Shown piece after piece: positions 4,145-9,986 of a stretch of DNA of 12,230 bases. The position numbers were made by a program, and so were the translations under genes. Source of the DNA: Acidobacteriota bacterium (GTDB lineage: Bacteria > Acidobacteriota > Vicinamibacteria > Vicinamibacterales > CAVVIG01); assembly GCA_003222555.1 (NCBI GenBank), contig QHWL01000142.1:4011-16240 (forward strand), written 5' to 3'. The stretch's first letter is position 1; the number at the start of each line of letters is the position of its first letter. The notes under the pieces are model-generated. The model searched no databases and was not told the DNA's origin. It saw nothing but the letters and a program-made list of their open reading frames with translations.

Positions 4145-5763
<1,619 letters not shown>

Positions 5764-7220: not shown

Positions 7221-7378
7221 GTGGACACCGACGACATTCGAACGCTGTACGAGTACAACACGTGGGCGAACCGTCGCGCCGTCGCGATGGCCCGGAGTCT
7301 GAAGCGCTGTTGAGACAGCTCGGCAAAACACCCGAAGCCACCGACTTCCTTGTGTTCCTTGACGAAACTGCTCGATAA
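7221..7378 (+). pseudogene. DinB-family protein remnant: N- and C-terminal ends fused out of frame
   Basis: A perfect AGGAGG at 7211-7216 precedes a GTG at 7221. The frame reads VDTDDIRTLYEYNTWANRRA, the typical start of DinB/YfiT-type four-helix proteins, and stops at TGA 7311-7313 after 30 codons. From about 7307 another frame reads LLRQLGKTPEATDFLVFLDE and ends at TAA 7376-7378, which matches the end of the same family. Family members have roughly 160-175 residues, so about 110-120 central codons are gone, with a frame change. The lost part includes the histidines that bind the metal ion, so no function is expected. It lies 17 bp after nuoN on the same strand. Assignment rests on recalled family patterns and is fairly but not fully certain. 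Confidence 0.72.
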
Positions 7379-7397
7379 GAGCCTGTGAAAAATGCGA

Positions 7398-7473
7398 CGT
7401 TTGAACGCAGAGCTCGCCGAGCACGCTGAGAAATCCTTTGGGCATTTCTTCTCTGCGGTCTCTGCGTTGAACG
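7398..7473. repeat. CGCAGAG-type imperfect inverted repeat
   Basis: The arms at about 7398-7421 and 7450-7473 pair through AACGCAGAG and CTCTGCGTT cores with several mismatches; the right arm contains two CTCTGCG units. The element lies in the 135-bp gap between the DinB remnant (+) and selA (-), which converge here, so it could act as a two-way terminator. There is no T-rich tail on either side. The remaining bases of the gap (7379-7397 and 7474-7513) show nothing I can name. Confidence 0.7.
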
Positions 7474-7513
7474 TGATTTGTTCACACTCCTGAAGGCCTG
7501 CGCCACTGCCGGC

Positions 7514-8924
7514 TCATGAAAGCCGATTTAGCAACGCCGCCAGCAGCTCGTCCTGCTCCGGCAGGACCGTCCGCAGATCCAGCAGCACTTGATCGTGCTC
7601 GATCCGCGCGATGATGGGCGGTGTCAGACCACGGAGACGTTCCTCCAGCGCGTCGGGTGTGAGCTCAGGTTTTTCGATGGGGTGTGAGCTCAGGTTTTTC
7701 GATGGCGACGAGCCACGTCGACAGCTCGACCCCGGGCGCGCTGCCGCCACCGACCGCCGACACACCCGGCACCAGTTTCGCGCGCCAACCGTCCACGGCC
7801 TTCAGTTCGGTCGCGAGCGCTTCCGCCCGTACGCGGATCTCGTCGGCAGTCGTCGTCAACATGCGCTGCACAGGAACCGTCGTCGGCGCCCGGCCCGCCT
7901 CGTATTCGGCGAGCGTCGCCTCGAGCGCCGCATAGGTCATCTTATCCACGCGCAGCGCTCGCATGAGCGGATGGCGTCGCACTCGCTCGACCAGGTTTGT
8001 TCGTCCAACGATGACGCCGGCTTGAGGACCGCCGAGCAGCTTGTCGCCGCTGAAGCAGCAGATATCGACGCCTGCCGCGACGCTGCCGGTCACTGCCGGC
8101 TCGGCGTTCGCGAGCGGGTGGGAGGCATCCGCCGCCAGATGTCCGCTGCCGAGATCCTCGGCGACAGGAACGTCGAAGCGCTTGCCAAGGGCGACCAGCT
8201 CGGCGAGCTCCGGCCGCTCGGTGAACCCCTCGATGCGAAAATTCGACGGATGGACGCGCAGGATGAGCGCGGTCCGTTCGCCGATCGCCGCCGCGTAATC
8301 GGCCGCGCGAGTCTTGTTGGTCGTGCCGACTTCGCGCAGCACCGCGCCCGACTGCGCCATCACGTCGGGCACGCGGAAGCCGCCGCCGATTTCGACGAGC
8401 TCGCCTCTCGAAACGATCACTTCGCGTCCGGCAGCGAGCGCCGCGAGAATGAGCATCGTCGCGGCGGCGTTGTTGTTTACGACGACCGCCGCTTCGGCCT
8501 TCGTGAGGCGGCAGAGGAGCGCTTCGGCGTGGACGTCGCGGCGGCCCCGGCTGCCGCGGGCAAGATCGTATTCGAGTGTCGAATATCCGCGCGCCACGGC
8601 GGCCACTCGCTCGATGGCCGATTCGGCCAGAGGGGCGCGCCCGAGGTTCGTGTGGATGATGACGCCGCTCGCGTTGATGACCGGTTCGAGCGACGGCCGG
8701 AACTGTTCGCCGAGACGTGTGAGAGCAAGGGCCTCGATTCGCGCGATCACAGTACCGTCGGCTTCAAGCGAGGAGTCGCCGCGCCCGATCGCATCGCGGA
8801 CGACCGTCGCCGCATGACGCAGCGCGTTGACGGTGGCGTCGCCGCCGAAGCGGAGCTCGAGCGCGCGGATCGTCGCTCGCTGTCGGAGCCGTTCGATGGA
8901 CGGGATCACGGTGAAGTCAGGCAT
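7514..8924 (-). pseudogene. selA: selA, L-seryl-tRNA(Sec) selenium transferase, frameshifted by a 25-bp tandem duplication
   Basis: SelA is a PLP-dependent cytoplasmic enzyme that converts seryl-tRNA(Sec) to selenocysteinyl-tRNA(Sec) using selenophosphate. The frame from the ATG at 8922-8924 shows the family's core: PVINASGVIIHTNLGRAPLA at 81-100, a serine/glycine-rich cofactor region, EDLGSGHL at 256-263, and FSGDKLLGGPQAGVIVGR with the PLP lysine at K295, the E. coli number. At residue 415 it enters the second copy of a duplicated 25-bp unit, adds four stray residues and stops at 7665-7667. The missing end follows in another frame as RLRGLTPPIIARIEHDQVLL and ends at 7514-7516. Removing one copy restores a 461-residue protein of normal length. 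No selB, selD or tRNA(Sec) is in the window. Confidence 0.93.
7656..7705. repeat. Perfect 25-bp tandem duplication in selA
   Basis: Bases 7656-7680 and 7681-7705 are identical. Each copy holds GAGCTCAGGTTTTTCGATGG, which encodes IEKPELTP on the minus strand. Because 25 is not a multiple of three, the second copy shifts the selA frame and brings in a stop. A perfect direct duplication of this size points to a recent event, or to an assembly or read error. Confidence 0.95.
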
Positions 8925-9395: not shown

Positions 9396-9986
9396 GTGGC
9401 CGAGCCTACCGACGTCGAACGCGATTTGCAGCGGCTCGAAGCCGAGCTCAAACGCCTCGAAGCCGAATACAACATGTTCTTCGCGGGCAACCTGCCCAAG
9501 CCGCCCTGGGAAACGCGAACCCGCGTCGAGTCGCTCGTCAAGAAGTTCGATCGCGCGTATATCCAAAACTACGGCGACCGCTTCCGCTTCGTGACGCTCC
9601 AGTCGCGCTACGCCACCTTCATCGATCTCTGGGACCGCGGTCTGCGCGCGAAGGAAGAAGGCCGCAGCGGTCCATTCGTGCACATGCGCGCCGACAAACC
9701 GGCCGAGCCCAAACGCCCGACAGACAAGATCCTCCACGTGGCGTCGTTCAAGGATCCGGTGAAGGAAGCCGACAAGCTGCGCGATCTGTACCATTCGCTG
9801 GTCGAAGCGCGGCACGAAATCGGCGAAGAAGCCATACCGTTCCACAAATTCGCGGAGCTGGTCAAAAGTCAGGTGAAGAAGCTCCGGCAGGGCGGCAGTC
9901 CCGAAGTCGCGTTCCGCGTGGCGGTGAAAGATGGAAAGGTGAATTTCACGGCGCGGGCGTTGAAGGGTGTTAAAGACAAAGACTGA
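9396..9986 (+). CDS. Conserved protein of unknown function with N-terminal coiled coil (196 aa)
   Basis: The GTG at 9396 lies six bases after the preceding stop, with GAGG at 9389-9392 (short spacing). The 196-residue product is highly charged and soluble. Residues 8-26 (ERDLQRLEAELKRLEAEYN) form a clear heptad pattern, followed by MFFAGNLPKPPWETRTRVES and by DRFRFVTLQSRYATFIDLWD at 61-80. A lysine/proline linker (about 98-112) separates a C-terminal part with helices at 122-164 and a strand-like end, VAFRVAVKDGKVNFTARALK at 171-190. From memory it resembles uncharacterised myxobacterial proteins labelled MXAN_5187-type, but I am not sure of that. The pattern of conserved aromatic and charged residues suggests a real, conserved family. 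Pairing with the 137-aa gene suggests a shared role. Confidence 0.78.
   Translation: MAEPTDVERDLQRLEAELKRLEAEYNMFFAGNLPKPPWETRTRVESLVKKFDRAYIQNYGDRFRFVTLQSRYATFIDLWDRGLRAKEEGRSGPFVHMRADKPAEPKRPTDKILHVASFKDPVKEADKLRDLYHSLVEARHEIGEEAIPFHKFAELVKSQVKKLRQGGSPEVAFRVAVKDGKVNFTARALKGVKDKD

Follow-up and report, generated by a model that had tools for sequence, protein, structure and literature searches.

The 25-bp tandem duplication in selA

The window analysed here, a stretch of 12,230 bp from an Acidobacteriota bacterium, is part of a 16.2-kb contig (C462, QHWL01000142.1) of the draft genome G000, a metagenome-assembled genome (MAG) of 784 contigs and 4.79 Mb with an estimated completeness of 82%. 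On its minus strand the window carries selA, whose product SelA converts Ser-tRNA-Sec to Sec-tRNA-Sec in the selenocysteine (Sec) system. As assembled, the gene lies in two frames. The open part (7665..8924, minus strand) begins with an ATG at 8924, ends at a premature TGA at 7667-7665 and encodes 419 residues. It matches TIGR00474, the model for L-seryl-tRNA(Sec) selenium transferase, with 507 bits, well above the cut-off of 267.9 (profile positions 3-410 of 455), and PF03841 with 430.9 bits. The orphaned 3′ end (7514..7654, minus strand) is in another frame and encodes 46 residues (DALEERL...LNRLS) followed by a stop. These residues constitute the SelA C-terminal block and match TIGR00474 at profile positions 389-454 (41.3 bits, E 9.1e-11), a score that alone stays below the cut-off. 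As it stands, the gene therefore does not encode a full-length SelA, with the C-terminal DLRTV block, in a single frame.

A perfect tandem duplication of 25 bp causes the break. In plus-strand numbering, one copy of the unit lies at 7655-7679 and the other at 7680-7704, the former being the later copy in the gene and the latter the earlier one. The perfect period-25 match covers 51 bases (7655-7705), that is, the two copies and one extra matching base. For periods 15 to 60, the longest match is 26 bases at this site and 9 to 12 bases in 20 mononucleotide shuffles of the window. This bears out the claim of an earlier note, made from the letters of the window, that a perfect 25-bp tandem duplication lies near the selA 3′ end. 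On the coding strand, IEKPELTP (after LVA) comes from the first copy, and the second copy, one base off, gives HRKT and then a stop. Since 25 is not a multiple of three, the frame stops four codons past IEKPELTP, which leaves the last 46 residues untranslated. The earlier note had predicted just such a stop after four stray residues and a loss of about 50 C-terminal residues. It had also expected a SelA of 461 residues once either copy was removed, and the summed lengths agree: 415 residues before the shift and 46 after it give 461, the length of the closest homologue, P0001.

Several local features accompany the duplication. The 25-bp unit contains an 8-bp palindrome, TGAGCTCA, the ends of the duplication have at most one base in common, and a run of five A stands immediately upstream of the premature TGA (CGA AAA ACC TGA). 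In the predicted RNA fold around the repeat the palindromes of both copies pair together; with a z-score of -1.8, this fold was not treated as a signal.

The lost block is retained almost throughout the SelA family. Among the best 120 of 7,998 scored homologues, taken as one per 90% cluster, 119 keep the C-terminus: 115 match the strict motif, and four more have DLRTV or DLRTI by eye. The exception, P0009, has 400 residues, ends before the site and looks chimeric by eye. It was excluded from the alignment of the other 119, in which 15 of the 40 columns of the lost block (columns 415-454, including DLRTV) are conserved at 95% or more, against 208 of the 414 columns before the shift. The block also lies within the region that aligns to solved SelA structures, and P0001 aligns through it to 3w1h. 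From these comparisons, the truncated SelA of 419 residues would be expected to be inactive. Such a loss of activity is not certain, as the lost block is less conserved than the rest of SelA.

selA in relatives and the Sec machinery of G000

The nearest relative compared, G001, belongs to the same genus and has a single copy of the 25-bp unit in its selA. This result and the C-terminus kept by nearly all homologues supply the comparison with relatives for which the earlier note had called. Between G000 and G001, the ratio of nonsynonymous to synonymous divergence (dN/dS) is 0.150 before the repeat (dN 0.084, dS 0.563; 407 codons) and 0.125 after it (dN 0.075, dS 0.603; 42 codons). The latter value is close to the median of 0.137 for 61 windows of the same size upstream of the repeat. 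Measured against the intact homologues P0001 to P0008, the tail differs at 1 to 6 of 40 residues, and the intact proteins differ among themselves at 0 to 8 of 40. For P0002 to P0005, divergence is lower in the tail than upstream of the repeat. On the whole, the selA tail thus appears to have been under normal selection until very recently, or to be so still. Because no decay is seen in the part after the break, the duplication is either very young or not real. The sequence as assembled has the features of a recent pseudogene, namely a broken frame, intact relatives and no decay past the break.

Tandem duplication does occur in selA, as five of the 120 homologues (P0090, P0092, P0093, P0094 and P0104) contain an exact in-frame tandem duplication of 11 residues, SPTSARLQPDF, at SelA residues 268-289. 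At the DNA level, 80 loci from named genomes, not all of which span the complete gene, showed no perfect repeats of at least 15 bp well inside selA; one perfect repeat, in locus L131, touches the first bases of the selA match. A selA above the cut-off is present in at least 89 of the 120 genomes searched, G000 included. In G085, a genome of the same order, the frame of selA breaks near residue 320 (L273, about 1185) with no N at the site, apparently by a small deletion, and a weak 10-bp repeat (1.9 copies, 88% alike) lies at the break. In G101, whose matches are likewise spread over different frames, 368 N lie in the stretch between the pieces, and the selA match of G080, below the cut-off, looks split as well. 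The breaks in G085 and G101 indicate that single broken selA genes occur in such drafts.

The remainder of the Sec machinery, which the earlier note had proposed to look for, is present in G000, with selB in two pieces. The gene for tRNA-Sec lies on contig C26 with 60.4 bits (cut-off 47), and ARAGORN also calls it tRNA-SeC. A 676-residue stretch from G001, used as selB query, matches two contig ends, residues 1-260 on C613 (86% identity) and residues 331-676 on C501 (73%), so that about 70 residues between the pieces are unseen. selD, on C679, is above the cut-off and has one in-frame TGA, in VACAG*ASKLAAG. Directly after this TGA, 45 bases are predicted to fold into a strong hairpin (-22.6 kcal/mol; z -2.7 relative to 200 mononucleotide shuffles). 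C44 carries an FdhA-like gene that likewise has one in-frame TGA, in QARV*HGPTV, which is presumably the usual Sec site of FdhA. This gene is the only one of six PF00384 matches in G000 with such a TGA, and the fold after it is no better than that of shuffles (z +0.7). G000 thus combines selB, tRNA-Sec, selD and TGA-containing genes in one genome, and with the tRNA-Sec, both selB pieces, selD and the TGA-holding FdhA-like gene all there, it looks like the genome of a Sec user. The second intact selA for which the earlier note had allowed was not found: among the matches listed for the draft, PF03841 and TIGR00474 hit only the two pieces described above. A second copy could be hidden in such a draft, given a completeness of 82% and 25 sampled contigs, out of 118, that are all N.

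Origin and meaning of the broken frame

We give an even chance to the reading that the 25-bp tandem duplication in selA is real, a one-off and very recent. A single slipped-strand duplication is thereby preferred over an assembly join error, which is plausible in itself and which we rate as the less probable source. If the duplication is real, slipped-strand mispairing or template switching during replication would most likely have made it. The truncated SelA, if inactive, would leave Ser-tRNA-Sec unconverted to Sec-tRNA-Sec. Without SelA activity neither SelD nor the FdhA-like protein would be made at full length, as both genes have an in-frame TGA. The result would be a recent loss of selA function while the rest of the Sec system is present, perhaps confined to the sampled strain, and not an evolved switch. 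Recent loss was one of three readings offered in the earlier note, and it fits the tRNA-Sec, the parts of selB, selD, the TGA-holding fdhA-like gene and the undecayed tail.

The closest published parallels are three. In some Yersinia pestis strains selB is a frameshift pseudogene, while selA, selC and selD are kept together with a formate dehydrogenase gene that contains a UGA, which was read as a very recent loss (Romero et al. 2005, PMC1273633). As in G000, one gene of the Sec machinery is broken by a frameshift with the rest of the trait remaining. In contrast, the Y. pestis case concerns selB in sequenced strains, and ours concerns selA, where a tandem duplication breaks the frame in a draft MAG that is unconfirmed. 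In the pneumococcus, duplications that arise spontaneously within capsule genes inactivate the open reading frame, can revert and are reported as phase variation (PMC4243769, citing Waite et al. 2001, 2003). The likeness to selA of G000 is the gene-inactivating duplication inside a reading frame; however, phase variation is reported there, whereas G000 offers one sequence in one state. A truncated SelA, as in G000, is also described for Helicobacter pylori (PMC4607533), but in G000 the C-terminal end is lost by a frameshift and beside a complete-looking trait. The literature therefore already has examples both of a Sec gene lost by frameshift and of duplications within genes that can reverse. 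No publication on a tandem duplication in selA appeared among the titles and opening lines of abstracts in a limited literature search.

Several observations weigh against a recent loss of function. The draft is fragmented and scaffolded, with N gaps, and a join error could look identical. The absence of decay would suit an artefact equally. Another perfect duplication, of 17 bp, alters the end of a cold-shock (csp) gene on C26. P0001, the nearest homologue, has a different residue at 3 of 40 positions of the tail and at 16 of 414 positions upstream, which hints, on small numbers, at faster change in the tail. Columns conserved at 95% or more are also rarer in the lost block than upstream, as noted above, so that activity need not be lost. 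Overall, an ordinary Sec system carries either a frameshift allele of recent origin or an error of assembly. If the allele is real, the loss of Sec use has been caught at its very first step, with the rest of the machinery and two TGA-containing genes still present. If it is an assembly error, the case is a caution against inferring the loss of a trait from one frameshift in a MAG.

An artefact would mean that scaffolding or gap closing joined two pieces with an unmerged 25-bp overlap and that the living population has an intact selA, which we consider a plausible explanation, short of an even chance. Such joins have some footing in this draft. A sample of 78 contigs contains 45 short N gaps of 1 to 171 bases, and one of these, a 5-base gap (L177, C705 4005-4009), has the same exact 8-bp duplicate on both sides, as an unmerged overlap would. 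The 17-bp tandem duplication (L054 1774-1812), which shifts the last codons of the csp gene, lies on the same contig as the tRNA-Sec gene. Furthermore, the selA frame shows no decay after the repeat, and with the other Sec parts present the loss of selA alone would look costly. On the other side, no N adjoins the selA repeat, and trait loss through one frameshift is in print for selB of Y. pestis (PMC1273633).

Scans for perfect repeats with periods from 15 to 200 also bear on this question. In G000, 118 contigs with 690,229 non-N bases gave 12 repeats, six of them not simple. The controls were 22 contigs of G001 (197,408 bases, seven repeats) and the 80 loci from named genomes (828,719 bases, 16 repeats). 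Whether a repeat shifts a gene was judged by codon score; nine repeats, all in the first 78 G000 contigs, were also judged by translation, and the controls by codon score alone. G000 has two gene-shifting repeats (selA and csp) in 0.69 Mb, and the 1.03 Mb of controls show none that is evident, a difference that is not significant (calculated by hand, the chance of both falling in the G000 sample is about 0.16). The G000 sample is not random in this respect, since the csp contig C26 was fetched for its tRNA-Sec gene. Among 114 G000 contigs picked by number, no perfect repeat that breaks the frame of a gene is evident, so the assembly is not full of such repeats. Of the six repeats that are not simple, three come from the four contigs that were retrieved because they hold the window or sel genes, which is probably coincidence. 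Another tandem duplication, perfect and in frame (21 bp; L056 3132-3173, C613), lies in a DUF4147/MOFRL gene, the second along from a selB fragment.

It is very unlikely that the duplication serves as a reversible ON/OFF switch, in which slippage between the copies would toggle Sec synthesis in the population, as the earlier note had suggested. A perfect direct repeat could in principle lose one copy, and reversible duplications are in print for the pneumococcal capsule genes (PMC4243769). However, a repeat conserved at the site in relatives, as would be expected of a phase-variable locus, is not found. The unit is single in G001, all but one of the 120 best-listed homologues keep the C-terminus, and in the 80 loci selA is free, away from its ends, of perfect repeats of at least 15 bp. 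No positive evidence for a switchable selA thus emerged from these lists, in which each 90% cluster or each species is represented once and a rare OFF state could be hidden. Moreover, selD has its own in-frame TGA. Cells in the OFF state would lose SelD, and reversion might then fail to restart the pathway. A rapid reversible switch is less likely because a revertant in which SelD had been diluted out would have SelA but no selenophosphate. The stronger claim, that a slippage-reversible selA allele switches the whole Sec trait off in part of the population, is more doubtful still. If true, the OFF state would lock itself through the TGA in selD and a restart would need leaky reading of that TGA, making selA a one-gene switch with memory.

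The gene could still work if the truncated SelA were active, or if a +1 slip at CGA AAA ACC TGA yielded a SelA with eight extra residues, both of which seem highly improbable to us. The run of five A before the premature TGA would permit +1 re-pairing of the Lys tRNA from AAA to the overlapping AAA, dN/dS is low after the repeat, and conservation is somewhat lower in the lost block than elsewhere in SelA (at 95%, 15 of 40 columns against 208 of 414). Stretches of five A, however, make poor shift sites. In addition, the lost block contains the near-invariant DLRTV and is retained by 119 of the 120 best-listed homologues, none of which has the arrangement seen in G000, and a low dN/dS is expected anyway with a recent event. 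An old selA pseudogene was rejected, as the tail evolves about as slowly as the part before the break.

Surroundings of selA in the window

Open reading frames that we read by eye as nuoH to nuoN precede selA on the plus strand. Next along from selA, which is on the minus strand, comes an open reading frame with an MXAN_5187 C-terminal domain (9396-9986, by domain match), followed by purH. Between nuoN and selA, at 7375-7500, lies a dispersed repeat of about 120 bp. BLAST finds it 64 times, counting the query itself, across 41 contigs of the G000 sample, and gives nine hits in six of the 22 contigs of the G001 sample. Imperfect A+T-rich tandem repeats at 5702-5762 lie at the end of the nuoM-like open reading frame, which continues into them.
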